From: Deltaproteobacteria bacterium tcs-42
Lineage (GTDB): Bacteria > Desulfobacterota > Desulfuromonadia > Desulfuromonadales > Geopsychrobacteraceae
Assembly: GCA_002049545.1 (NCBI GenBank)
Contig: LLYT01000004.1
Span: 1-59,373 of the forward strand
DNA: 59,373 nucleotides
Direction: 5' to 3'
The notes under the pieces are model-generated. The model searched no databases, was not told where the DNA came from, and saw nothing but the letters and a program-made list of their open reading frames with translations. The position numbers were made by a program, and so were the translations under genes. Positions 24,692 to 38,583 of this stretch are shown here, in pieces; position 1 is the stretch's first letter, and each line of letters begins with the position of its first letter.

Positions 24692-25760
24692 GTGTCAAAA
24701 TTCCATTCTTTTAGATCGGATTTCATAAATATGGTTGCTAATCAAGGATTCGGGGGGATGATTGGTCATTCTCCACAGATGCTGGAGCTTTTTGAGTTGA
24801 TTTCCTGTGTCGCGGAAGATGGCGAGAGTACGGTTCTTATTCAGGGGCAAAGCGGTACGGGAAAAGAGCTGATCGCTCGGGCCATCCATGAAAAGAGTCT
24901 GCGCAAGTCCTCTCACTTTGTCCCGGTCAATTGTGCGGCGATTCCTGATGAGCTTCTGGAAAGTGAACTGTTCGGTTATGTCAAAGGGGCTTTTACTGGC
25001 GCTCAGCAATCGAAAACAGGGCGTGTTCAGCTCGCTGATGGCGGGACCCTGTTTCTGGATGAAATCGGTGACATGAAGTCGAGTCTGCAGGCGAAACTGC
25101 TGCGTGTCATTCAGGAGCGTGAAGTTGAACAGGTTGGGGGGGATCAAGCCGATCAAGGTTGATGTGCGGATCATTGCGGCAACCCATCAGAATTTGGAAG
25201 AACTGGTTGCTGCGGGGCAATTTCGTGAAGATCTGTATTATCGCCTTGCGGTGATTCCGCTGATTGCTCCACCTTTATGTGAGCGGCCGGATGATATCGC
25301 TTTATTGATTGAACGTTTTATTGACCGTTTCAGTCGGCGCAAAACGGACAAGCGCACAACCATTGACCCTGTTGCCATGCAAAGTTTGCGATCTTACAGT
25401 TGGCCGGGCAATGTCCGCGAGCTGGAAAACTTGATGCAACGTCTGGTTATTCTGCACCGGGGGAAGCGGGTTACGTTAAAAGAATTACCTGAGAAATATC
25501 GCTGTGTGGAGGTCAAAACGGAAGAAATTTCATCGCCGCCAAGCGAGACTGGCGAACCACCATTTTCCTCAGCCTCTCCGGAGACAGAATGGTCTGATGA
25601 TGGGTTGGATTTCAATGGTTTGATCAGTGAATTTGAAGATCGTCTGATTCTTCAAGCACTCAGTCGAACCGGTGGAAATAAAAAAGAAGCGGCACGAATG
25701 CTTAACCTGAAGCGTACGACGTTGATTGAAAAGATAAAGAAGAAAAATCTGCCAGTATAA
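24692..25760 (+). pseudogene. Sigma-54 dependent transcriptional activator, frameshifted
   Basis: Two frames together encode one AAA+ activator of about 355 residues without a sensory domain. The first part has Walker A ([15 protein letters not shown]), GAFTGA ([12 protein letters not shown]) and Walker B ([11 protein letters not shown]). The second resumes at [17 protein letters not shown] and ends in a Fis-type HTH (GGNKKEAARMLNLKRTTLIEK). The shift occurs in a run of seven G at 25136-25142 where six would keep the frame ([13 protein letters not shown]). The first frame stops at 25162. Start GTG 24692 or ATG 24731. A sequencing error, a slippage-controlled switch or a true mutation would look the same. 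Its target genes are unknown. Confidence 0.8.
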
Positions 25761-25806: not shown

Positions 25807-27699
25807 TTAACTGGCTTTTTTAAAGTGCTGGCTCACTTTATCCTGAATTTCATCATCACTGGCAGGCATCAGCAGAATATCTTTTGCGCCATATTTGACG
25901 GCTCTGAGTACCGCAGAACGGGTCCACTCTGAGCCCGCAAAGATCATTGGTGGCAAAGGTTGACCTGCTGACTGTAATTTGATTGCTGAAGCAAATCCTT
26001 TTTCCCCATCCTGTTCCATAATCAGAACAACACCGAGGACCTTGTGTTGTTGAAAGAACTCTTTGACTTCCTCTTGAAAAGTTAATATCTGACACTCATA
26101 TTTGGCAGAAGATAGAACCTCAACAAAGGGGTCGGCGTCGGTCTTTTGATTGCCAATCACGAGGACGATGGGCGGACCTGTGGGCTCGGGCATCGGTTGT
26201 GCTGGTGTCTTTGCTGATTCCTGACCGCTCGCTTGAGTTGTTGTTGCCGCCGTGGTTGCTTCAGGTGAAGGAGGTCCTCCCCACTCGCCGGGCGCCGGTT
26301 GCTCTGCAGCGTTTGCCTCCGGAGTCGACTGAGCTGGTTGTCCTGCAGCTGTTGCTGTTGATTCTTGAGTTGAGTCGGGGGCTTGCTCATTGTCCAGATC
26401 GAAAACTTCTGCCGGAAAAACCAGCAGAATCCGGTTTAATTCGTGACCTTCCATCTGAATTGCAAAGGAGGCCAGGTAGTAGTTCCCTTCGGGAAATGGT
26501 TGATCTGAGGCGGTTTCAATTTTTGTCGGGACAATTGTTTCTGTTTCGGTTTTGATGAACCGGAGCTGTTTTGGATAACGATCGAGAAACGTCTGGGTCA
26601 GGCTGCCAGATAAAATATTAGCAACTTCACCATAGGCATCTGCAACATCTCCATCAAATTGGCCGTTATTTTTCTGCTCTTCGATTTGATCTTCGGGAAG
26701 CATGATCAGGGTGCCACCGAGAACGACGGCATCTGGCACCTGGATCACCATAAAGCCAAGCCCTTCCCGATCTCCAGTGACCTTCATGTGGGTCAGTACC
26801 GAGTTGTCGTTACAGTGATTGGAAAAAAAGTCGGCTTTGCTGGTCATCACCAGCTGAATGTCATCGCACTTCAAAGGGTGGCCAAGTAATGCCCCGATCT
26901 CCTCACCGGCCTGTCCGATCGTTGCGTTGAATACGACGTCAGTTATTTTTTTGGCATCGGCAAAGGTGGGTTTTTTCTCTGCCGGGGGAGCCGGTTCCGG
27001 TTCGGCAGGAGGGTTATCGCTTTGAACGACCGGTTCAGCTTCTGACGTCAATCCTGCCTCGGGTGGCGCTTCCGCTGGTTGCTGCTCGTCTGGCACTTCT
27101 GTTGCTGTTGCGGGTTCAACGGCATCATCTTCCAATTCAAAAATTGCTGCCGGGACTACGAGTTCCAGCGGTCCAAGGTCTTTATCGCCAATACTTATAT
27201 TGCAACGGCTAACGTGGTAATTCCCCGGGGGGAAAGGCTCATCACTGGCAGGATCGATTTTTGTCGGAATCAGATCTTCGACCGATTGTTTGATGAAACG
27301 GAGGGTTTTTTTATATTTATCGACAAATGACTGAGTGAAAACACCCGCAATGATATTGGCCACTTCACCAAACGCGTCGTCGAGTTCACCGTCAAGTTTT
27401 TCGCTTTGAGCACTCTCCTCAATCACATCTTCGGGGAGCATGATCAAGGTGCCGCCAAGGATGGCAGCAGAGGAGATCCGGGTGAGAAGGTAGCAATCGC
27501 CCTGGCGGTCACCCTCAACTGTCATGCGGGTCAGGGCCGTTTTGCTACGACCCGGATCACTGAAAAGATCATCTTTGGTGGTGAGGTTGAGCTGAATATC
27601 AGAACAGACCAGCTCTTGTCCCAGCAGGGCGCCTATCTCTCCAGCCAGGTTTTCTGTGGCCGACTTGCAGACGACATCAATGATAGCCCGCTGATCCAA
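25807..27699 (-). CDS. Double CheX/CheC-like phosphatase protein with pseudo-receiver
   Basis: A 630-residue protein with two similar CheX/CheC-like domains (about 1-185 and 250-430), two Pro/Ala/Glu-rich linkers (about 190-245 and 440-515) and a C-terminal receiver-like fold (about 520-630). The CheC/CheX catalytic E-x-x-N occurs twice: AFGEVANIIAG and AYGEVANILSG. CheX and CheC remove phosphate from CheY-P. The receiver has lost the canonical residues: VVLIMEQDGEKG instead of an aspartate-ending strand 3, and LLMPAS instead of the lysine-proline. Start TTG 27699 with AGAGG five bases before it. Last gene of the cluster. The two domains share TLRFIK...PTKI blocks, so they arose by duplication. 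Confidence 0.75.
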   Translation of the reverse strand: MDQRAIIDVVCKSATENLAGEIGALLGQELVCSDIQLNLTTKDDLFSDPGRSKTALTRMTVEGDRQGDCYLLTRISSAAILGGTLIMLPEDVIEESAQSEKLDGELDDAFGEVANIIAGVFTQSFVDKYKKTLRFIKQSVEDLIPTKIDPASDEPFPPGNYHVSRCNISIGDKDLGPLELVVPAAIFELEDDAVEPATATEVPDEQQPAEAPPEAGLTSEAEPVVQSDNPPAEPEPAPPAEKKPTFADAKKITDVVFNATIGQAGEEIGALLGHPLKCDDIQLVMTSKADFFSNHCNDNSVLTHMKVTGDREGLGFMVIQVPDAVVLGGTLIMLPEDQIEEQKNNGQFDGDVADAYGEVANILSGSLTQTFLDRYPKQLRFIKTETETIVPTKIETASDQPFPEGNYYLASFAIQMEGHELNRILLVFPAEVFDLDNEQAPDSTQESTATAAGQPAQSTPEANAAEQPAPGEWGGPPSPEATTAATTTQASGQESAKTPAQPMPEPTGPPIVLVIGNQKTDADPFVEVLSSAKYECQILTFQEEVKEFFQQHKVLGVVLIMEQDGEKGFASAIKLQSAGQPLPPMIFAGSEWTRSAVLRAVKYGAKDILLMPASDDEIQDKVSQHFKKAS

Positions 27700-27723: not shown

Positions 27724-28182
27724 TTAGTTGAGATTATATTTCATCTCAACAAAAAATTGCCCCTGTTCAATGTTGAAAGGGATAATAACCCGGTTGTTTT
27801 TTGTTGAAGAAGCAATGGTGTACGATTTTCCCGATATTGCTGTCGGAATGGCCAGCTCCAGGTTCAAACCCTCTGCAGCGAACCTCTCCTTTAATCCACC
27901 GGCCAGCATATTGGCAATCTCTCCCAGGGCATCTTTGACATCGGCATCGATTGCCTCGATTTCCATGCCAAGCATCGCCCCGGAAATTGCCAGACCGGTC
28001 GTTTCTGGACAGTGAATTCCAAGCATCGCCGAAAAATCGCCGGTCAGACCAATCATCGCCGAAACGTGGCAACCGATGGCCTGCTTTCCCTCTGCAAATG
28101 GCGGATCGGCTGACACTTCCAGGAAAATCATGGTATTAAATAACTCTTCGGTTGTTTCCACAATTTTTTTAGTAAATTCCAC
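27724..28182 (-). CDS. cheX: CheX-like chemotaxis phosphatase
   Basis: A 152-residue single-domain CheX-like protein. DALGEIANMLAGGLK holds the E-x-x-N dephosphorylation motif, and the preceding region has AMLGMEIEAIDADVK. CheX acts as a dimer on CheY-P to shorten the signal. It is followed after 24 bases by the double CheX gene and preceded by another cheX gene. Paralogue of 28218-28733. Confidence 0.82.
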   Translation of the reverse strand: MEFTKKIVETTEELFNTMIFLEVSADPPFAEGKQAIGCHVSAMIGLTGDFSAMLGIHCPETTGLAISGAMLGMEIEAIDADVKDALGEIANMLAGGLKERFAAEGLNLELAIPTAISGKSYTIASSTKNNRVIIPFNIEQGQFFVEMKYNLN

Positions 28183-28217: not shown

Positions 28218-28733
28218 TTAACTATTTTTACTGATTTGCAGCTCTACCATGAAGGTCTGTCCGTTAAAGGAAAAGGGGACGGCGACCGTTTCTGCATCAG
28301 CCAGACAGTCAACAGCATACTCTTCACCATGGACTGCCGATGGTATAGATAGCTGAATATCACTACCACCAGGATCAAGGATCGCCTTCATGCTGCCACC
28401 CAGCATATTGGCCAGTTCACCAATGGCGTCGCAGACATCTTCATCAATCTCTTCGACATCCATCCCGAGAAAAGCGGTGGTAATTGCCAGCGCAGCTTCA
28501 TTGGGTAAGTGAATTGCCAGCATCCCTTTGGACGTCCCAGCCAGACCGATAATTCCTGAGATGCTGTTGCATAACTTGCTGTCACCGCGCTTAAATGACT
28601 CCCCCGGAGTGACATCCAGCATCACCATACTGGAGAAGATCTCCTGGGTTGCGGCGGCTATATCTTGAGTGTATTTCACATAAGACTCCTTCAAATAGCC
28701 GGAGAAGTCATCAATATGAGACTCCTCCGGCAA
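28218..28733 (-). CDS. cheX: CheX-like chemotaxis phosphatase
   Basis: A 171-residue CheX-like protein with DAIGELANMLGGSMK as the E-x-x-N motif and TTAFLGMDVEEIDEDVC before it. It has about 20 extra N-terminal residues (PEESHIDDFSGYLKESYVK) relative to the neighbour. It lies directly downstream of a cheY gene, so CheY-P from that protein is a likely target. Confidence 0.82.
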   Translation of the reverse strand: MPEESHIDDFSGYLKESYVKYTQDIAAATQEIFSSMVMLDVTPGESFKRGDSKLCNSISGIIGLAGTSKGMLAIHLPNEAALAITTAFLGMDVEEIDEDVCDAIGELANMLGGSMKAILDPGGSDIQLSIPSAVHGEEYAVDCLADAETVAVPFSFNGQTFMVELQISKNS

Positions 28734-28758: not shown

Positions 28759-29130
28759 TTAGAGTAGTGGTCCCAGGGTTTCGTTGATCAAGTCGGGGGT
28801 GAACGGTTTTTTTATGGCCCCTTTGGCCCCGTACGATTTTGCTTCGTCAATAATATCGGCGCCGGTTTCTGTCGAGATCATGACCACCGGGATATCTTTG
28901 ATCGCATCATCCTCTGCTTTCGCTTTGAGAAATTCGAGCCCGGTCATGTTTGGCATGTTGATATCACTGAGGACCACATCAACTTTGTTGGCCGCCAGAA
29001 CATCCAGGGCTTCCTGGCCATCACCCGCCTCAAGGATCTGATCAAAATCGATCCCTGCCTGACGGAGTGAGCGTGAAACAATTTTCCGCATAGTATTCGA
29101 ATCATCGACAATCAAGACTGCTTTACCCAT
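28759..29130 (-). CDS. cheY: CheY-type response regulator
   Basis: A 123-residue stand-alone receiver. VLIVDDSNTMRKIV gives the acidic pair, VVLSDINMPNMTG the phospho-acceptor aspartate (about residue 56), MISTETG the switch threonine/serine, and IKKPFTP the invariant lysine. No output domain. Phosphorylated by CheA and likely binds the flagellar switch or another target. First of two CheY genes in the cluster, between two CheX-like genes. Confidence 0.92.
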   Translation of the reverse strand: MGKAVLIVDDSNTMRKIVSRSLRQAGIDFDQILEAGDGQEALDVLAANKVDVVLSDINMPNMTGLEFLKAKAEDDAIKDIPVVMISTETGADIIDEAKSYGAKGAIKKPFTPDLINETLGPLL

Positions 29131-29166: not shown

Positions 29167-29646
29167 TTATTCATCTTTCATGGCAACCAGAGAGGCTCCT
29201 GCAGCATGAATCTGCAGGGCGTCCTCTTCATCGGTCATCAGTTTCCAGATGATGGTGTTTGCATCGGCCTCCGGCCATTCTTCTTCGCCCAATTCCGGCA
29301 GACCCATTTTGTATTCCTGATCGTCTTCTAAAAGGTTGGTCAGGAATAGTCCGACAATGGTGTTGAGTAATTCATTCTGGATGTCATTCATCTGTGGCTC
29401 GGTGATTTCCTCATCATCAATGCTGAAAATGTTTCCAGTGAGTTTTCTGAGAAAGGTTTTAGCCATGGCCAGGCGAATTTCACCCTGGACGGGGTCGTTG
29501 ATCAATAAACTATTCCAGGCAAGATCCTCTGCAGGGATTTCGTAGGAACGATCAAAGTGTTCCATCACCTCCATAAAAACCATATTTTCGAGGGTCTGGC
29601 TGACCGCATTGATCATCGCCTGGTAGAGGGGCTTATGTTTGAGCAT
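29167..29646 (-). CDS. Divergent CheX-like protein
   Basis: This 159-residue acidic protein fits the CheX/CheC phosphatase fold: MNDIQNELLNTIVGLFLTNLL contains an E-x-x-N (ELLN) at the position of the catalytic helix, and MVFMEVMEH resembles the first strand. It is more divergent than the other copies and ends with AGASLVAMKDE. It lies between the two cheY genes. A phosphatase role is probable but less certain; it could be a scaffold. Confidence 0.6.
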   Translation of the reverse strand: MLKHKPLYQAMINAVSQTLENMVFMEVMEHFDRSYEIPAEDLAWNSLLINDPVQGEIRLAMAKTFLRKLTGNIFSIDDEEITEPQMNDIQNELLNTIVGLFLTNLLEDDQEYKMGLPELGEEEWPEADANTIIWKLMTDEEDALQIHAAGASLVAMKDE

Positions 29647-29673: not shown

Positions 29674-30048
29674 TTAGTCGTCAAGAAAATCGGCGAGAGC
29701 TTCCATCATGACGGGGGGAGAAACCGGTTTGTTGAGAACCCGGTGAGCTCCCAATGCCAGTAACTGCTCCTCTTTGGCCGGGTTTCCGGCACTGGTAATT
29801 ACAACGACCGGCAAATCACTGAGTTTAGGGCTCGCTTTGACCCATTTGACCAGCGTTTCTCCATCCATAACCGGCATGTTCAAGTCGGTCAGCAGTAGAT
29901 CAACGGGTTGTGCTTTAGCCGCAGTCAACGCCTCTTTACCATGCTCTGCTTCAATAATTTCTGCGTCTCCCAGACCAATTATTTGCAGACAGCGCTTGAT
30001 AAACATTCGGGCCGTTGTCGAGTCATCCGCGATAATGATTCGTTTCAT
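29674..30048 (-). CDS. cheY: CheY-type response regulator
   Basis: A 124-residue receiver: IIIADDSTTARMFIKR (acidic pair), LLLTDLNMPVMDGE (phospho-acceptor aspartate), VITSAGNP (switch residue), VLNKPVSP (lysine). Only moderately similar to the other CheY in the cluster, so the two probably have different targets. One base overlaps the HDOD gene (stop/start ATGA type), showing tight coupling. Confidence 0.92.
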   Translation of the reverse strand: MKRIIIADDSTTARMFIKRCLQIIGLGDAEIIEAEHGKEALTAAKAQPVDLLLTDLNMPVMDGETLVKWVKASPKLSDLPVVVITSAGNPAKEEQLLALGAHRVLNKPVSPPVMMEALADFLDD

Positions 30049-30926
30049 TAGTTTTCATCTCCCGAGCCTGTGAATGAACTTTCGAGTTTTTCAAATTCTA
30101 TATCAACATTGAGCATAATCGATGCGAGGGTTTTTGGACCGATGTTTATGTAATGAGTGTATTCCGGGTCAAGCTTATAGCGCATACTGTCAGACCCGGT
30201 ACCAAAGCCACCCATCATGGCGATATTGTCACCAAGGTGCACGGCATAAACCAGTGCCCGATATTCCTCTTTGGCATTGATTGGCTCATGATGGTGGAGG
30301 ATAACTTCGGCCAGTTCTTCGGGAAGTTTCCAGGCTCTGGCCAGTTCGTACCCGGCTCTGGTATGGTCAAACCCTACCAGTTTTTCTTCGGCATCGAGGT
30401 AATCGAGATCTTCATCGGTTGTGATCATCTCAACCGCATCGGTGACCGATCCATGCAGGTAGTCAGAAATTATTGACTTGCCGATATCGTGTAGCAGCCC
30501 GGCCGTAAAAGCGAGTTCAGAACTGATATCAACACCGCTCTGAGTAACGACTTCTCGCGCAGCAATGGCGGTGCGTAAATCGTGTTTCCATAGATCACCA
30601 CCGGCAGATTCATAACCGGAAAGTTCTTTCTCAAATAATTTTCCGGCAGAATCACCAACCGCAATTCCGACGATAATCCGTTCGCCCAGATAGGAAATTG
30701 CCCGGTCGATCGAGGTAATGGTGTTGATTAGCCCAAAAGCGGCCGAATTGACAATTTTGAGAACGCGTGCGGTCAGGCTGGCATCGGTTCTGACCAAATC
30801 AATAACGTCCATAAGATCGTGATCAGCCTGAGAGGTGATCTGGATAAGTTGACTGGCGCTGGGGGAAAGCATCGGGACCGAGTTGACAACCTTCTGCAGT
30901 TCTTCCTGATTCAATTGTTTCACCAT
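30048..30926 (-). CDS. HDOD domain protein
   Basis: A 292-residue protein with an HDOD domain (a catalytically inactive relative of HD hydrolases): SADHDL-like MDVIDLVRTDASLTARVLKIVNSAAFG, FTAGLLHDIGKSII and VGFDHTRAGYELARAWKLPEELAEVI. The HD pair is present in LLHDIGK but the family is usually non-catalytic and signals through interaction. ATG 30926 follows AGGAGG by seven bases and is preferred to TTG 30932. Coupled between cheD and cheY, an arrangement found in several deltaproteobacterial che clusters. Confidence 0.88.
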   Translation of the reverse strand: MVKQLNQEELQKVVNSVPMLSPSASQLIQITSQADHDLMDVIDLVRTDASLTARVLKIVNSAAFGLINTITSIDRAISYLGERIIVGIAVGDSAGKLFEKELSGYESAGGDLWKHDLRTAIAAREVVTQSGVDISSELAFTAGLLHDIGKSIISDYLHGSVTDAVEMITTDEDLDYLDAEEKLVGFDHTRAGYELARAWKLPEELAEVILHHHEPINAKEEYRALVYAVHLGDNIAMMGGFGTGSDSMRYKLDPEYTHYINIGPKTLASIMLNVDIEFEKLESSFTGSGDEN

Positions 30927-30936
30927 TATCAACCTC

Positions 30937-31425
30937 CTAAAGCTGCCAGTTCGGTTTTCCGGGTGAGCTGAGCGTTATCTGCCCGGCTGAAACGGAGATC
31001 GAAACAGTTCGACTGAAGTTCTTGCCAAGGTCTTCAGCAACAGCGCCCATGCCGTAAGACCAGAGAATCTTTTTGATTGCCAGGGCGTTCCGTTTGCCGA
31101 TCTGGAAGGTATCGTTGCTGTCCATAACATTGGCTCCACCGCAAAGTTTAACAACCATACCTTTGCCGCGCTTGTCGCAGCCAAATTTTGCCATCTGCGC
31201 CAGTAATGCCGGGATTGCGGTGTCGGCAAAATAGCCCGGCTTTTCCCCGGCCTTCGCTTTATTGATGGATGAATCTGGCAGGGCGACATGAGCCATACCT
31301 GCGGTTCTGGTTTTCGGGTCGAGAAAAATTACCGAAACGCAAGATCCCAGCGCAAAAGTTTTTACGTCATCTGCGGGGGAGTTTGATGCGCCGTAATCAC
31401 CAACGCCCAATATGATTTGTCCCAT
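30937..31425 (-). CDS. cheD: Chemoreceptor glutamine deamidase CheD
   Basis: A 162-residue CheD. The catalytic cysteine and histidine are in TFALGSCVSVIFLD and AGMAHVALPDSS, and KLCGGANVMD is conserved. CheD deamidates glutamines in chemoreceptor methylation helices; in organisms with CheC it also stimulates CheC-type phosphatase activity, which is relevant next to many CheX-like proteins. It follows cheB directly. Confidence 0.93.
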   Translation of the reverse strand: MGQIILGVGDYGASNSPADDVKTFALGSCVSVIFLDPKTRTAGMAHVALPDSSINKAKAGEKPGYFADTAIPALLAQMAKFGCDKRGKGMVVKLCGGANVMDSNDTFQIGKRNALAIKKILWSYGMGAVAEDLGKNFSRTVSISVSAGQITLSSPGKPNWQL

Positions 31426-32481
31426 TTATCTTTTCTCCGTAAGCAAACCCAGAAGTGCTGCTGAAATCTTGTCCAGTGGGACCAATTTTTGGGCTCCACC
31501 CTTTTCAAACGCAACCTTGGGCATACCAAAAACAACCGATGACGCTTCATCCTGAGCGATACAGCGAGCACCAGCCTGTTTCATTGCCAACATCCCCTTG
31601 GCCCCATCCTGCCCCATTCCGGTCAACATGGCTCCAACAGCATTGGCTCCCACATGTTTTGCGACCGAGTGCATCATCACATCGACAGAAGGGCAGTGTC
31701 CGCTGATTTTTTCATCGCTTCCAAGGCGGACTTGATAAAATCCGCCGCTACGGACAACTTCCAACTGTTGACCGCCGGGGGCTATCAGAATCAGCCCGGA
31801 GCGAACCCGATCACCGTGCTCAGCTTCTTTAACCTGCATCTGGCAGAGTTGATTGAGGCGTTCGGAAAACATTTTGGTGAAACCGGACGGCATATGTTGG
31901 ACAATCACTGTGCCGGGGGTGGTTGGCGGAAATGTTTCAATGACACGCCGGATCGCTTCGGTCCCTCCCGTTGAAGCACCGATGGCAATAATCTTGTCGG
32001 TTGATTCAGCCAGTGCCGCAGGGGCGGCTGTCGTTTTAGGTGGTGCCGTCGGGCGTTTCCCTTTCCAGTGGGAAACATTGGCTGTTGCAGCCGCTTTGAC
32101 CTTGGTGCGTAGTTCCATCAGCATGCCATTTAAACCCGCTGCCACATTGCTGGTAGGTTTGGCGACAAAGTCGACGGCTCCGGCTTCCAGCGCTTCCATG
32201 GTGATTTGTTTGCCACGCTGAGTTAGAGAACTGACCATGACGATTGGAATTGGATACTGAGGCATCAGTTTACGCAGAAATGCAACCCCGTCCATGCGCG
32301 GCATCTCCACATCCAGAGTCAGCACGTCAGGCTGCAGTTGCATGATTTTATCTCGTGCAATGTAGGGATCGGCAGCTGTCCCAACCACTTCAATGGCGGG
32401 ATCGAGCGACAGGCCTTGACTGAGAATATTTCGCACTAAGGCCGAATCATCAACGACAAGAACACGAATAGCTTGCGCCAT
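31426..32481 (-). CDS. cheB: Chemotaxis methylesterase CheB
   Basis: A 351-residue response regulator with an N-terminal receiver (VLVVDDSALVRN, LTLDVEMPRMDG with the phosphorylated aspartate, FVAKPTS lysine) and a C-terminal esterase: IGASTGGTEAI (serine), VIVQHMPSGFT (histidine), MLTGMGQDGAKGM (aspartate). It removes methyl groups from chemoreceptor glutamates when phosphorylated by CheA. Overlaps cheR by one base. Confidence 0.95.
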   Translation of the reverse strand: MAQAIRVLVVDDSALVRNILSQGLSLDPAIEVVGTAADPYIARDKIMQLQPDVLTLDVEMPRMDGVAFLRKLMPQYPIPIVMVSSLTQRGKQITMEALEAGAVDFVAKPTSNVAAGLNGMLMELRTKVKAAATANVSHWKGKRPTAPPKTTAAPAALAESTDKIIAIGASTGGTEAIRRVIETFPPTTPGTVIVQHMPSGFTKMFSERLNQLCQMQVKEAEHGDRVRSGLILIAPGGQQLEVVRSGGFYQVRLGSDEKISGHCPSVDVMMHSVAKHVGANAVGAMLTGMGQDGAKGMLAMKQAGARCIAQDEASSVVFGMPKVAFEKGGAQKLVPLDKISAALLGLLTEKR

Positions 32482-33341
32482 CAGAGATCACCTTTCTGGT
32501 AGAGTGCCGGCTTCAGGTAGCGGTAAAGGCTCTGGCTTCGACCGAGAGTTTCTGAATGGCCGATAAAGAGGTATCCATCGGCTTCAGTATGCTGGTGATA
32601 GCGATTGACCAGGGCTTCGCGGGTCGTTTGATCGAAGTAGATCATAACGTTACGACAGAAAATCATCTGGAACGGTTTTTTAAATGGAAAAGTTGAGTTC
32701 ATCAGGTTGAAGCGTCTGAAGGTTGCCTCTTTTTTGACTTTATCGACAACGGCCATTTCATTTTGACCAGCAGGGGTAAAATATTTTCTGCGTAAGTTTT
32801 CCGGGAGCTGCATGACCCGGTCTGTTGCGTAACTGCCACGACGGGCAACAGTCAGTGCCTTGTCAGAAATGTCGGTTGCCAGAATACCGGCATCCCAGGA
32901 ACTGTAGTCAGATCCCAGATATTCCATCATCAGCATCAGCAGGGTGTAGGGCTCTTCGCCACTCGAACAACCCGCACACCAGATGCGCAGATCTTTGCGG
33001 TTTTGTTTTTTCAGTCTGTCAATGACGGTGGGTAATGCCGTTGCGGAAAAATAATCAAAATGATCTTTTTCTCGATTGAAATAAGTGTGATTGGTTGAGA
33101 TCAGATCAACCAGTTCACTTAAGGCCGCTTCCGTCTTGTCGTTATCGAGATAATTGAAATAAGCGGAGAATGTCGGCAGATTAAGCTGTCGCATCAGTTT
33201 TTGCAGTCGGCCAACCAGCAGCGAGCGTTTTTGCTCGGTCAGATTGATCCCAAAACGTTGGTAGATCAGATCTCGCAGTTGGGTAAACTCCGAATCTGAA
33301 ATAACCATCAGGTTATTGTTTTGTTGTGGGTTGGCGTTCAT
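32481..33341 (-). CDS. cheR: Chemotaxis methyltransferase CheR
   Basis: A 286-residue SAM-dependent methyltransferase. The N-terminal helical domain is followed by LRIWCAGCSSGEEPYTLLM (SAM-binding) and IFCRNVMIYFD. It methylates glutamates on chemoreceptors, counteracting CheB. No C-terminal pentapeptide-binding extension beyond the usual length was noted. Located between cheW and cheB. Confidence 0.95.
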   Translation of the reverse strand: MNANPQQNNNLMVISDSEFTQLRDLIYQRFGINLTEQKRSLLVGRLQKLMRQLNLPTFSAYFNYLDNDKTEAALSELVDLISTNHTYFNREKDHFDYFSATALPTVIDRLKKQNRKDLRIWCAGCSSGEEPYTLLMLMMEYLGSDYSSWDAGILATDISDKALTVARRGSYATDRVMQLPENLRRKYFTPAGQNEMAVVDKVKKEATFRRFNLMNSTFPFKKPFQMIFCRNVMIYFDQTTREALVNRYHQHTEADGYLFIGHSETLGRSQSLYRYLKPALYQKGDL

Positions 33342-33359
33342 TGTCTGTAGCGGCTTTCG

Positions 33360-33863
33360 TTATTGCTCTTCCAGGTTCTCGGCCAATTTCTGCATTTCAC
33401 TACTGAAGAGGAGTTTGTGGATATCGAGGAGAATTTTGACGTCGTTGTTGATTTTCCCCATCCCCTTGATATAACCATCCTCAGAATTTTTACTGGTGCG
33501 GGGTGCCGGTTCTACGTTGTTTTCGGGGATGTCGGCCACTTCACTGACTTCATCCACAACCAGACCCACTTCAGTGGTATCAATGTTAACCACGATGATA
33601 CAGGTACGATCATCGTAACTGCGATCTTCAATGCCAAAGCGGGCACGAACATCCATAATTGGTACGACTTTGCCGCGCAAGTTGATGACCCCACGGATAT
33701 ATGCCGGCATGTCAGGAACATCAGTAATGCTCTGAATACCTATAATTTCAATGACATATTGAATATCAACACCGTAATCTTCACCAGCGAGATGGAAAGT
33801 CAGGTACTTGTCTTTCTGTGTGTCTTCATCACCAAAATTGGTCAAGGTTGTCTCTTCAGCCAC
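33360..33863 (-). CDS. cheW: Chemotaxis coupling protein CheW
   Basis: A 167-residue SH3-like adaptor: KYLTFHLAGEDYGVDIQYV at the N-terminus, MPAYIRGVINLRGKVVPIMD (the CheW signature) and VGLVVDEVSEV. It links chemoreceptors to CheA in the array. Acidic N- and C-terminal tails are slightly longer than in E. coli CheW. Encoded 12 bases downstream of cheA. Confidence 0.95.
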   Translation of the reverse strand: MAEETTLTNFGDEDTQKDKYLTFHLAGEDYGVDIQYVIEIIGIQSITDVPDMPAYIRGVINLRGKVVPIMDVRARFGIEDRSYDDRTCIIVVNIDTTEVGLVVDEVSEVADIPENNVEPAPRTSKNSEDGYIKGMGKINNDVKILLDIHKLLFSSEMQKLAENLEEQ

Positions 33864-33874
33864 GTGAGCCTCCT

Positions 33875-36178
33875 CTAAATATTATCTTTCGTCTTCTCAA
33901 ATTTGATTTTTTTGCTTTCAGCCGATTCGATCAGGGTGCCTACGTCAAGGATCAGGCAAACATCACCGTCACCAAGAATAGTACAGCCCGAAACACCGGG
34001 GACATTGCCGATAAAGTCTGACAGACCCTTGATCACGGTTTGCTGTTGGCCAAGGATTTCATCAATGAACAAGCAGAAACGGGTCTCCTGTGCTTCCAGG
34101 ACAATCAGGATCCCATCGGCAAGATCCCGAGAGTCAGGTTTTTTACCCAGAATGTCATGCAGTCTGACAATCGGAAGGAAGTTGTCGCGGACCTGTGCCA
34201 GTTCATCACCATCGGGGGTGATCGTGATCTGATCCATTTCCGGGCGGTAAGCTTCAAGCATCGACAGGGTTGGAACGATACAGGTGGAAGTGCCAACCCG
34301 TACGATCATCCCATCGATAATTGCCAAGGTCAGTGGAATCCGCAGGGTTATTTTGCTCCCCTGACCGGGGGTACTGTGAACATCGATCTTTCCCTTGATT
34401 TTTTCCAGATTCTTCTTGACGACATCCATGCCGACACCACGGCCGGAAATATCGGTAATCGCCGCTGCGGTAGAAAATCCGGGGGCAAAAATCAGATTAT
34501 TGATCTGTTTGTCGGTCATGTCAGAGCCGTCACCTTCGATCAGCCCTTTGCTGATGGCTTTTTCGAGGATTTTCTCTTGATTCAAACCACGACCGTTGTC
34601 TTCGATAGTGACCCAGACTTCACCCTCTTCATGACGAGCAGCAAGTATGATGGTCCCCTTTTCTTTTTTGCCGGCAGCCAGGCGCTCGTCCGGAGTCTCC
34701 AGGCCATGATCGAGAGAGTTCCGCAGCAGGTGAACCAGCGGATCGGTAATCGTTTCTATGACCGTTTTATCAATCTCGGTCTCTTCACCAATCAGTTCCA
34801 GCTCAACTTTTTTTCCTGCCTTGACGGAGATATCGTGAACCAGGCGGATCATGCGGCGGAACAACCCTGACACCGGTATCATGCGGATCGTCATGGCCAT
34901 TTCCTGAAGTTCCCGTACCAGTTTCGACAGGTGTTGTCCCGCCTTATTGAAATTTTCCAGTTCCAGCCCTTTCAGGTCCGGATTGTGAATCAACATGTTT
35001 TCCGCAATAACCAGCTCGCCAATCAGATTGATCAGACTGTCGAGCTTGCCCAGTTCAACGCGAATATCCTGCCGTTTCGCCGGGGTTTTTGTCCTCGCTG
35101 CCGGTTTGGCTGCGGCCTTGGATTTTTTGATGGTATCTTGCTGTTTTTTCAGTGCCTGGTCGACTTGTTGCGTAGATGCGGTCCCCTGTTCAACCAGAAT
35201 CTCTCCCACTGGTTTTTTCTGGGTTTGAGCCGCCCTGGAAACAGATTCGTTTTCAACGCCCTCTTCAACCAGAAAATCACCCAGCCGTGGGGCGATAATG
35301 GCTTGCAGGTCACTTAAGTGCTGGTCAAGGTTTTCAACGGTGTCATCTTTGCCGTCAGAAATATTATTGACAGCTTGTTGCAGCACATCAAGGGAAGCTA
35401 ACAGCCGGTTTGCAGGGTCATCCACCGCTAAGCTTGATCCCGATTTGACGCGATCAAGGATATTTTCCATCTGGTGGCTGAGTTTTTCAATCTGTGAAAA
35501 ACCAAAGAAGCCACAATTGCCTTTGAAGCTATGGATATTGCGGAAAATATCGCCAACGGAATCTGTGTCGTCGGGATTTTCACCCCAGGCGAGCAAGCCC
35601 TGTTCGGTATTTTGCAGCAGCTCGTTTCCCTCCTGAACAAAGCTTTGGCGCATCTCGTCGGTGATTTCCATTTGCAGGGAATCTGGTTCGGCAGCCGGTT
35701 GTGCCGCCGGGGGTTCCGGCTCTGCCGGGGTGGTTTCTTCAACCGCCTCAGCTTGAGGTTCACCGCCCCCTTTGGCGAGGGTCATCGCTTGATGAAGTTG
35801 TTCCGATATGTCATCGGCAGGGGCAACCATTGCATCATCGTTATAATCACTTTCGATCATATCGAGGGCTTCTTTTGCAAAGTCGCAAGCGGCGCACAGC
35901 AGGGTGACATGGTTGCCAGCCAGCTCAATCTCATCGTTACGGATCATGTCAAGCAAGTTCTCGGCAGCATGAGCGACCCGTGTCATGTGGTCAAATTCGA
36001 GGAACCCGGCACTCCCTTTCATCGAATGGAAGAGGCGGAAGATCGCATTGATTGTGTCAGAATCGCTGTTCTGACCCAGTTCAATGATTGCCGGTTCCAG
36101 CTGCTCAATCATGTCGCGGCTTTCGGTGGCAAACTCCTGAATAATTTCAATCTGGTCGTCGTCGAGGGGCATACTCAT
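33875..36178 (-). CDS. cheA: Chemotaxis histidine kinase CheA with two Hpt domains
   Basis: A 767-residue kinase. Two phosphotransfer domains are visible, with H51 in FHSMKGSAGFLEF and H216 in IHSFKGNCGFFGF. Residues about 298-347 form a tandem RLGDFLVEEG / VGEILVEQG repeat resembling MshEN-type c-di-GMP motifs. Then come dimerisation (VELGKLDSLINLIGELVIAE), the ATPase (HLLRNSLDHGLETPDERL, DNGRGLNQEK, ISGRGVGMDVVKKN) and a C-terminal CheW-like domain. The Lys/Ala-rich 348-365 is a linker. No separate P2 CheY-docking domain is recognised. First gene of the block after the receptor gene. Confidence 0.92.
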   Translation of the reverse strand: MSMPLDDDQIEIIQEFATESRDMIEQLEPAIIELGQNSDSDTINAIFRLFHSMKGSAGFLEFDHMTRVAHAAENLLDMIRNDEIELAGNHVTLLCAACDFAKEALDMIESDYNDDAMVAPADDISEQLHQAMTLAKGGGEPQAEAVEETTPAEPEPPAAQPAAEPDSLQMEITDEMRQSFVQEGNELLQNTEQGLLAWGENPDDTDSVGDIFRNIHSFKGNCGFFGFSQIEKLSHQMENILDRVKSGSSLAVDDPANRLLASLDVLQQAVNNISDGKDDTVENLDQHLSDLQAIIAPRLGDFLVEEGVENESVSRAAQTQKKPVGEILVEQGTASTQQVDQALKKQQDTIKKSKAAAKPAARTKTPAKRQDIRVELGKLDSLINLIGELVIAENMLIHNPDLKGLELENFNKAGQHLSKLVRELQEMAMTIRMIPVSGLFRRMIRLVHDISVKAGKKVELELIGEETEIDKTVIETITDPLVHLLRNSLDHGLETPDERLAAGKKEKGTIILAARHEEGEVWVTIEDNGRGLNQEKILEKAISKGLIEGDGSDMTDKQINNLIFAPGFSTAAAITDISGRGVGMDVVKKNLEKIKGKIDVHSTPGQGSKITLRIPLTLAIIDGMIVRVGTSTCIVPTLSMLEAYRPEMDQITITPDGDELAQVRDNFLPIVRLHDILGKKPDSRDLADGILIVLEAQETRFCLFIDEILGQQQTVIKGLSDFIGNVPGVSGCTILGDGDVCLILDVGTLIESAESKKIKFEKTKDNI

Positions 36179-36387: not shown

Positions 36388-38583
36388 TTACCGATTTTGC
36401 AGATATATCCCGTAGCCGTCGCGATCCTGGTTTTCAATATGACTGATCAACCAATCTTTCAAGAAATTATAGATGTCGGATGGTGGCAGCCGTTCTCCCG
36501 ATTTGAGTTTTTCAGCATAAGCGCCGACTTTCTCGACAAAGTTTTTATGGATTTGCTGATGAGCTTCGAGATCTGGATAGTTGTTCTTGCGCATCAGGTC
36601 TTCTTCAGAACGGAAGTGGGTCACAGTATAGTTCACAAGTTCATCAACGACGCCGGAGAGGACCATTCTGTCGCCACCATCCTTCATGCAGCTGAAGAGT
36701 TGATTAATCAGTTCGACCAGGCGGCGGTGTTGTTGATCCATGAGGGTGACGCCGGTATTGTAACTATCCTTCCATTGAAGAGCTGCGCCGTTTTTATTGG
36801 GGGTGGTCGGTTGGGGCGACATATTTCCCCACCCCCCTGCATTGTCCTGTGCCGGCAAAGAAAGCTGCGCTGCTGGAGTTGGGGAATAGCCCTGATGAGA
36901 CGAGCCTTTGAGCCTGAAACGGCTGAGTTGATGTTTTAATTCAGCTGCCTGGCTGGAGAGTTCTTCACTGGTTGCGGCACTCTCTTCAGCGCTGGCGGTG
37001 TTCTGTTGAATCACCTGATCAATCTGTTGCATGCCGGTGTTGACCTGGGCAATCCCTTGTGCCTGTTCATTGCTGGAAACGGCAATTTCTCCAATCAAAT
37101 CAGACACCTTGGCGATTGAACCGACAATTTCTTCGAGGGCGTCTGCGGTGCGTTCGGCGATCCTGGTGCCGTTGCCGGCCTTTTCGATTGAGCCCTCAAT
37201 CAGTTCCGCAGTTTCTGAAGCGGCTTTGGCACTACGCGCTGCCAGATTACGGACTTCTTCTGCAACCACGGCAAAGCCTTTACCATGTTGACCGGCGCGA
37301 GCGGCTTCAACAGCAGCATTAAGAGCTAACAGATTGGTCTGGAAGGCTATCTCATCAATAACTTTGATGATTTTTCCAATATCCTGACCAGCAGCGTTTA
37401 TTTCCCCCATGGCGCTGATCATCTCAGCCATTCGCTCACTGCCATCATTTGCCGCCGTGCTGGCATTGGTCGATAATTGATTGGCCTGCTGGGCATGTTC
37501 GCTGCTGGTGTTGGTCTGGCCACCTATTTCGTTCATCGAGCTGCTGATTTCTTCAACCGATGCTGCCGACTGCGCCGCGCCATCTGACAGGCTCACAGCA
37601 GATTCACTCACCTGTGAGCTCCCCGCATCAATCTGTTCGCTGGCACTTTGGATCTGCAGCATAATCTGGTTAAGGTCCTCACCTAATTTTTTTAAACTTC
37701 CACGCAGCTGATCCCGGTTGTCACGTGGATGAATCTCGAATGTCAGATCACCATTGGCGAGTTTCTGCAAGGAATCGACCACTTCATTGTTTAGCGAGTC
37801 GGCAAAACGATCCATGGTCTTTGCCAGTTGACCAATCTCGTCTTGACGCTCCATGTGCAGACGTGTATCGAGATGTCCGTTTTCAAGATCTTCGATCATT
37901 GTGACAGTTTTCTTCATCGGTGCAGTCATGGAGCGGCTGATGAAAAAAGCCAAGACAGCGCCGATCAATAGTGCGATGACACCGAGGATGGTGGCCCCTG
38001 TTCGGGTACTGTTGGCGGCAGCAATCATTTCGCTGTCGGTCATAATATGTTGCTTGGATATCTCGACGATTTCATCCAGGATCGCGCCGATTTTCTTCAG
38101 GTTAACAGTGGTTTGTTGTTTATAAATGGCCTCAGCCTCAGCCTCAGCCTCGGCCTCGGAGTTGACCGGATTGGATGGACTGAAGACCGCTTTGATTTTT
38201 GCGCCGGAGGCGTGCATAAGTCGGTGGGGTTCTTCAAGTGCTTGTAGTTGTGCCTTGATTTCAGGCAGAACCTCTTCAGCATGTTGGCGCCCTTCTCCGT
38301 AATACCACTTGCCAAGAGCGCAGGTTTTGTGATCCAGCTTTACTTTCAGCTCGGTGATTGCGGGATCATCAAGAAAATTGCGAACTTTATGTGCCCACTT
38401 GAGATGCTTGTTTTCCAGGGAAATCAGAGCGGAACGAATTTTGTTGCCGTCAGAAACCTCGATACCATTATTGCTGGTGGTTGTCAGGCCAAAGATACAC
38501 CAGAGCAGGATCGCCAGAAGTAGTGCAAGAATGGTCCCGGAAAGGAGCATCATTTTGGTTGCGATTTTTAGATTGTTGAACAT
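36388..38583 (-). CDS. Chemoreceptor with CZB and C-terminal hemerythrin domains
   Basis: A 731-residue methyl-accepting protein. TM1 is residues about 10-35. A CZB-type zinc-binding pattern follows: H60 (HLKW), C88 (CALGKWYY), H120 and H124 (HRLMH), matching Hxx[W]..CxLGxW..HxxxH. TM2, HAMP and the signalling hairpin ([21 protein letters not shown]) follow. Residues about 600-731 are bacteriohemerythrin with all ligands: DQQH, THFRSEE, AHQQIH, SHIENQD. Hemerythrin chemoreceptors such as DcrH of Desulfovibrio sense oxygen; CZB responds to zinc or oxidants. An (EA)n run at 143-152 is coded by a six-base microsatellite. Heads the chemotaxis cluster. Confidence 0.9.

Follow-up and report, generated by a model that had tools for sequence, protein, structure and literature searches.

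The window analysed, a stretch of 59,373 nucleotides from the 2.55 Mb genome of Deltaproteobacteria bacterium tcs-42, contains on its minus strand, at positions 25807-27699, an open reading frame of 630 amino acids that begins with a TTG codon preceded by an AGAGG site; the plus strand of the same segment is interrupted by stops. From the reading frame, Pfam and AlphaFold its product is a tandem CheC/CheX-type protein with a predicted C-terminal pseudo-receiver, named here X2R (two CheC/CheX-type domains and a receiver; relatives with one such domain and a receiver are X1R). The gene is the last of the run cheA-cheW-cheR-cheB-cheD-HDOD-cheYa-cheXa-cheYb-cheXb-cheXc-X2R (36178 down to 25807), which is taken to be a single operon. 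Immediately ahead of X2R lie two canonical CheX genes, cheXc (27724-28182, Pfam CheX 90.3 bits) and cheXb (28218-28733, 85.9 bits), preceded by cheYb (28759-29130), which encodes a canonical receiver by Pfam and alignment, the likely substrate, cheXa (29167-29646, 39.8 bits), cheYa (29674-30048, Pfam) and a gene for an HDOD-domain protein (30048-30932, Pfam), all on the minus strand. The reading frames of 30937-36178, also minus, comprise cheA, recognised by Pfam, and four genes which from their sequences we take to be cheD, cheB, cheR and cheW.

Some features of the surroundings may be recorded separately. CheA (33875-36178, minus strand) has two Hpt stretches and, in the Pfam scan, no match to a P2 domain; its residues 319-360 (VGEILVEQG...) precede the dimerisation domain. 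Adjoining the operon, 36388-38583 (minus) encodes a chemoreceptor with CZB, HAMP and MCP signal domains and a C-terminal hemerythrin. On the other side of X2R, at 24692-25760 (plus), a sigma-54 activator is split over two overlapping frames (profile positions 1-130 and 121-167), which is a frameshift or assembly error, since both parts share one frame in relatives, for example L037 and L008.

Within X2R, residues 1-190 (27130-27699) form D1, delimited by AlphaFold and Pfam, and residues 242-437 (26389-26976) form D2, both being CheC/CheX-superfamily domains and D2 having a fold near that of the FliM middle domain and FliY. They are joined by linker 1 (residues 191-241, 26977-27129; 12 P, 10 A and 10 E in 51 residues), and linker 2 (residues 438-502, 26194-26388; 11 P, 15 A, 8 E and 10 T in the 68 residues 438-505) leads to the pseudo-receiver (residues 503-630, 25810-26193), which has a receiver fold from which the phosphorylation residues are gone. 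The AlphaFold2 model (19 sequences) resolved domains at 3-187, 246-433 and 510-629, mostly with pLDDT 75-96, separated by linkers that are mostly below pLDDT 50 and disordered; with a pTM of 0.39 for the full-length model, the relative placement of the three domains is not predicted. A first-pass annotation made from the sequence alone had described a 630-residue protein with two CheX-like domains and a degenerate receiver on Pro/Ala/Glu-rich linkers, and had proposed structure prediction and a search for orthologues as checks: the reading frame, Pfam, AlphaFold and recurrence in many species confirm the overall description, the composition of both linkers bears out their character, the models give three confident domains with a receiver fold at the C-terminus, and the same architecture was found in many species.

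Searched over the whole of X2R, the Pfam CheX model (PF13690) matched two stretches at 38.3 bits against a cut-off of 27, while D1 and D2 taken singly scored 22.7 and 20.0 bits. A PDB search with a profile of 24 D1 and D2 copies retrieved, at E up to 10, only CheC (E 0.0012) and FliY (E 0.027), and none of the solved CheX chains; in a control, a profile of the operon's own CheXb and CheXc matched these chains from E 8.2e-32. Foldseek placed FliY first for X2R (1.7e-9), followed by CheC (6.0e-8), FliM (3.4e-7) and CheX (1squ, 8.4e-7). In VIA comparisons, for which the full-length model (longer than the length advised for the tool) rather than singly folded domains was used, D2 aligned best with the FliM middle domain (Z 20.9, rmsd 2.1, 167 residues), then with FliY (Z 20.1, rmsd 2.7, 182 residues) and CheC (Z 17.4, rmsd 3.0, 182 residues); no CheX entry is among the best 50 VIA matches, which shows only a lower rank. 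The single-copy Pfam scores, the PDB profile, Foldseek and VIA place D1 and D2 within the CheC/CheX/FliY/FliM superfamily as divergent representatives; by profile and Foldseek they stand nearer to FliY, CheC and the FliM middle domain than to CheX. The first-pass wording of 'two CheX-like domains' was thus correct as to a tandem and only roughly right as to 'CheX-like', given where the profile and Foldseek place the domains.

CheX, a strand-swapped dimer with CheY-P phosphatase activity, carries the catalytic ExxN pair on a single helix of each domain and has two sites in its dimer, and CheC holds two ExxN sites within one domain. X2R has one such motif per domain: E112 and N115 in D1 (27355-27366), invariant in 19 full-length sequences, and E358 and N361 in D2 (26617-26628), placed by the alignment of full-length orthologues and domain copies. 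Among the 154 domain copies that span the motif, drawn from 95 protein sequences, both E and N are retained in 151, the exceptions being D2 of L115 and both copies of L172, all of which have lost the N. The first EIGN of CheC aligns with non-matching residues of D1 and D2, albeit in a weak alignment (E 0.0012), and only the second motif is present.

The gene neighbourhood was compared across 90 distinct loci (best matches of 60 bits or less, L128-L131 among them, left out; two pieces of one split gene counted separately), of which 86 had at least 700 bases of upstream sequence, 78 had 2.2 kb and 59 had 9.5 kb. The nearest upstream homologue was cheX in 84 of the 86 (exceptions L123 and L172), and cheYb lay no more than 3 kb away in 74 of the 78 (exceptions L078, L080, L123 and L172); L172 has neither cheY nor cheX adjoining. 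Homologues of cheA, cheB and cheR were found together within 9.5 kb upstream on the same strand in 36 of 59 loci, and in the other 23 this block is absent, yet cheY and cheX stay. Two loci (L110, L111) have a cheA-like gene downstream instead; at L101, placed with Desulfocapsa by the domain tree, the cassette stands without that block and adjoins fliF and fliH genes, and the gene order of the Geobacter-type loci is cheY-cheX-X1R.

X2R was present in 37 of 60 related genomes, tcs-42 included, with three genomes having a lone receiver at E ~1e-4 (G016, G038, G047) scored as negative. A scan of named genomes gave at least 73 loci, a lower bound because it matches two conserved peptides; by their titles they are mostly Desulfuromonadales, Desulfobulbales and Desulfobacterales, but two pieces come from a bin that carries the label Chloroflexi, and Myxococcota and Planctomycetota account for four distant loci. 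In a phylum set of 395 genomes, with up to 10 candidates scored per genome, the receiver profile gave clear matches (E 1.6e-23 or better; the next, from E 2.6e-11, were not counted) in at least 20 genomes, among them six of Geobacter type (L165-L170) found by this profile only. All 20 clear matches are fused to phosphatase-type domains (one domain in 7, two in 13), so that none of them is a pseudo-receiver free of such domains.

This distribution follows that of FliM. Of the 60 genomes, 35 have both X2R and FliM, two have X2R alone (G030, G035), one has FliM alone (G002) and 22 have neither; in the phylum set FliM is present in 20 of 20 pseudo-receiver genomes against 240 of 395 overall, counts which are not fully independent because the genomes are related. 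Since it occurs almost exactly with FliM in the 60 relatives, X2R belongs to flagellar chemotaxis. No CheZ match exceeded the cut-off in any of the 60 genomes, where two sub-threshold matches were seen.

Near-perfect co-occurrence with FliM, taken with the leading alignments of D2 to the FliM middle domain and FliY, would also fit a role for X2R at the rotor, or as an adaptor, in the manner of FliM and FliY, in which it binds CheY-P and phosphatase activity is not its main function. We consider this quite improbable: the ExxN pair is kept in all but three domain copies, the tcs-42 genome already encodes its own FliM with the N-terminal peptide ILSKDEIADLL, and FliY carries a FliN/SpoA domain at its C-terminus, whereas the 630-residue X2R gave no Pfam match to FliN/SpoA at E up to 10 and ends instead in a receiver fold. 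The order of Z scores says little on function, because the FliM middle domain, which is no phosphatase, and CheC are homologous folds.

The FliM sequences themselves were inspected by eye. FliM is divergent in 22 X2R or X1R genomes outside the Geobacter type (L180-L193 and L204-L215 set), in which the N-terminal peptide reads EIA[DE]LL in 18, EISELL in two and QIEELL in one, with one unreadable; it is EI[DE]ALL in four Geobacter-type genomes and EVDALL in nine of ten pseudo-receiver-free genomes, the tenth being unreadable. The idea that FliM of X2R genomes lacks the CheY-binding peptide was dropped, a variant peptide being visible at the N-termini.

A second gene shares part of this distribution. 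On another contig of the tcs-42 genome (C71, locus L179, 8017-10425) an 802-residue TPR protein with a signal-like N-terminus is encoded ahead of flgB, flgC, fliF and fliG genes. Its family occurs in 14 of the 395 genomes, exactly those with a pseudo-receiver match of E 1.3e-38 or better, and in the six Geobacter-type genomes a homologous TPR gene overlaps or closely follows X1R (two of the six were scanned with Pfam; a profile comparison of five of them with the TPR family gave E 2.3e-31). A strongly hydrophobic stretch (mean of at least 1.9 over 15 residues) lies near the N-terminus in 15 of 16 entries, from which the protein is probably exported. A direct docking of the receiver on this TPR protein, by analogy with FrzS and SgmX, was therefore rejected, as the receiver is cytoplasmic. 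The shared profile may reflect a type of flagellar system inherited as a package, and the TPR protein is possibly an undescribed exported part of the flagellar motor.

A rapidly built tree with 70 domain copies and SH-aLRT support only grouped D1 and D2 of the same lineage repeatedly (9 changes per label, at least 5 for D1 and 4 for D2 being required by starred branches), which disfavours a single ancient D1/D2 duplication. It appears likelier from these sequences that one-domain ancestors acquired a second domain on several occasions, or that the copies homogenise by concerted evolution. Four distant one-domain proteins, candidates for the same family, have a weakly similar phosphatase-type domain (49-60 bits) and each gene stands behind a cheY; by eye, the two from Myxococcota (L128, L129) have a receiver-like C-terminus that keeps the Lys with the Asp replaced, and the two from Planctomycetota (L130, L131) keep VVLLD and have lost the Lys and the acidic pair.

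The C-terminal domain scores below the Pfam receiver cut-off (PF00072, 30.2 bits) both within X2R (16.4 bits) and in isolation (21.0 bits). Modelled alone from 68 sequences, it folds with pLDDT 87.7 and pTM 0.83, and the solved receiver with the highest VIA score is 2qxy (Z 16.6, rmsd 2.1, 117 residues). The tcs-42 receiver contains the strings VVLIMEQDG and LLMPAS. An ungapped alignment of β3 (VVLSD of CheYb against VVLIM) puts M561 (26017-26019) at the phospho-Asp position, where the 68 receivers have M (56), L (6), V (3), I (2) or F (1) and never Asp; in a MAFFT alignment with the operon's CheYs the Asp column shifts two residues further on, to Q563, where D occurs in 7 of 68 and E or Q in most. 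The conserved-Lys position, M611 (25867-25869), is T in 52, M in 10, I in 3 and L in 3, and the loss of Lys is the same under either β3 alignment. The first acidic position (G516) is acidic in none of the 68, the second (N517) is often D, E or N, and D564 of 'EQDG' is V or I in the other 18 full-length orthologues. These 68 sequences come from 84 proteins and do not include the Geobacter type; the 16 left out are 12 in which no receiver was matched (ten split or cut at a contig end, and two from Planctomycetota), the weak L128 and L129, L091 with an altered C-terminus and the truncated L064. In the six Geobacter-type receivers the Lys is kept in all, the acidic pair in five (S-D in L169) and W-T-R in all; the Asp position is Ser in five and Val in one, and no constant acid lies nearby. 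Across these alignments, then, the family shares the missing Asp but not the further erosion. The replacement of phospho-site and lysine reported in the first-pass annotation thus holds throughout the 68 (by the ungapped alignment for the Asp), with an unusual phospho-acceptor conceivable in the seven that have D at the MAFFT column. By model and alignment, the domain is a pseudo-receiver: it has kept the receiver fold and lost the residues central to phosphotransfer.

With these residues gone the domain might be a functionless vestige, a reading we regard as very improbable indeed, as it has been kept across orders, retains invariant non-catalytic residues and has a dN/dS like that of the enzymatic domains. 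Between tcs-42 and five relatives, dN/dS was 0.06-0.13 for the receiver (computable in 3 of 5 pairs), 0.055-0.095 for D1 and D2 (9 of 10 pairs) and 0.29-0.44 for the linkers (8 of 10), synonymous sites being close to saturation; the receiver is under purifying selection, like D1 and D2. Invariant in all 68 receivers are W592, T593, Y603, D607, I608 and P612, and W592-T593-R594 (25918-25926) marks the β4-α4 loop, position 594 being R in 64 and K in 4. Conservation peaks in α3 and from β4 through the β5-α5 loop (0.71-0.82; the intervening α3-β4 loop 0.50) and is low in α1, β2 and α2 (0.35-0.37).

The pattern of conservation bears on what the domain might do. As a pseudosubstrate gate, the receiver would sit as a CheY decoy on the ExxN helices of D1 and D2 (or on CheXb); CheY-P would displace it, which would make phosphatase activity climb steeply with CheY-P. 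It is a relative of CheY tied to CheY-binding enzymes, the long flexible linkers permit contact with D1 and D2, the most constant neighbour of X2R is cheX, and the well-conserved β4-α4 (0.82) and β5-α5 (0.80) loops sit at the former active-site end; yet the full-length model, with its low pTM, predicts no set position of the receiver against D1 or D2, and the β1-α1 loop (0.45) and α1 (0.36) are poorly conserved, which leaves such a gate unlikely in our judgement. A more specific and, we think, improbable form would make the receiver a constitutive CheY-P mimic: Met in place of Asp, Thr or Met in place of Lys and the invariant W-T loop would lock it in a phospho-like shape, and it would bind the ExxN helix of its own D1 and D2, or of CheXb, as a non-hydrolysable decoy, making the phosphatase self-gating. 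Were this true, phosphatase output would depend steeply on real CheY-P, and repeated gain of a second domain would tune the number of gated sites.

The reading we favour, and hold at about even weight, is that X2R acts as a phosphatase on CheY-P and is docked permanently by its pseudo-receiver at a partner in the pathway; it draws on the catalytic pairs kept, the phosphoryl site lost, the constant CheY and CheX neighbours and the conserved non-catalytic face. The single ExxN site of each CheC/CheX-type domain would insert into CheY in its phosphorylated form, with CheYb the likeliest target, and speed the loss of phosphate, with two domains on one chain replacing the two sites of a CheC domain or the dimer of CheX. 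The receiver, unable to take or hold a phosphoryl group, would have been retained for docking in a permanently 'on' state, its docking face being the conserved surface around β4-α4-β5 and α3, and together with the flexible linkers it would hold the phosphatase at a fixed partner of the same pathway. Of these parts, phosphatase activity is predicted with good confidence and CheYb as substrate with somewhat less; docking as the putative job of the receiver is evenly poised. Against the phosphatase reading count, in the sequences, the loss of N from both sites of L172 and from one of L115 and, in the models, the FliM middle domain as best VIA match; X2R could also be regulatory, because the operon's three other CheX proteins could perform all of the dephosphorylation. 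Docking is made plausible by the concentration of conservation in α3 and from β4 to the β5-α5 loop, together with a precedent in FrzS of Myxococcus xanthus, whose pseudo-receiver works by binding the TPR protein SgmX through an α3-β4-α4 surface (PMC12632262, PMC11580455); the overlap of the conserved X2R region with that surface is suggestive, no more. An earlier suggestion that the receiver could dock partners or CheA is to that extent plausible as regards docking, with nothing that points specifically to CheA.

No family of this layout was found above cut-off in Pfam or NCBIfam, nor any description of the architecture in the literature searched (mostly open-access, supplements excluded), in agreement with the first-pass annotation, which likewise knew of none; as far as these searches show, phosphatase-type domains fused to this pseudo-receiver are undescribed. 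The nearest relations are partial. With CheX (PF13690) X2R shares one ExxN per domain and an adjoining cheX; the Pfam model matches the whole protein above cut-off and neither copy singly, and X2R differs in its longer (~190 residues), tandem, receiver-fused domains. CheC and FliY are the nearest solved sequences to D1 and D2 and similar in fold, but CheC has two ExxN sites per domain where X2R has one, FliY has the FliN/SpoA domain not found in X2R, and X2R has a receiver in addition. CheC and CheX dephosphorylate CheY, and the CheA-CheC/CheX fusions of Leptospirae likewise join such a module to a chemotaxis part, theirs being fused to the kinase and that of X2R to a pseudo-receiver (PMC10782961, in the sections cited).

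A che cluster described as a 'unique type' in the flagellated Desulfuromonas strains AOP6 and 2873T has cheA/W/B/R/C/D/X upstream of flagellar genes, with three cheX per genome (PMC8235581 and its Table 3); compared by gene content it is very likely the same cluster type as that of tcs-42, although the passages of that account drawn on here give no description of the fusion protein or of a receiver in it. A scheme for Pelobacter carbinolicus has CheX dephosphorylating CheY (PMC3543383), and the sections cited on three Geobacter genomes give one cheX each and make no mention of such a fusion (PMC2577667). Our analysis suggests that removal of CheY-P in Desulfuromusa and relatives uses up to four CheC/CheX-type proteins encoded in one operon, of which one has no description in the literature searched.

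Aspartate-less and pseudo-receivers (PMC12632262, PMC4395418) share the receiver fold without phosphotransfer residues, as far as the parts cited describe them, and X2R differs in having Met or Leu at the Asp position, where hydrophobic residues are called rare (PMC4395418); surveys based on PF00072 would miss the X2R receiver because it scores below the cut-off. The main text of PMC12632262 mentions neither CheC nor CheX, and PMC4395418 likewise has no CheX, and no CheC as a whole word, in its main text. FrzS is likewise a pseudo-receiver of a motility system that acts by docking; in contrast to X2R, the text cited gives it an N-terminal receiver and a coiled coil and names no phosphatase domain. 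A 2025 perspective, in the part cited, calls the activation and inactivation of bacterial pseudo-receivers a mystery (PMC12632262), and here the X2R family offers clear company (CheY, CheX and FliM), a sharp signature, a measurable attached enzyme and natural variants that differ in the number of phosphatase domains (one or two) and in the erosion of the receiver (partial in the Geobacter type, or complete), through which this question becomes testable in vitro.
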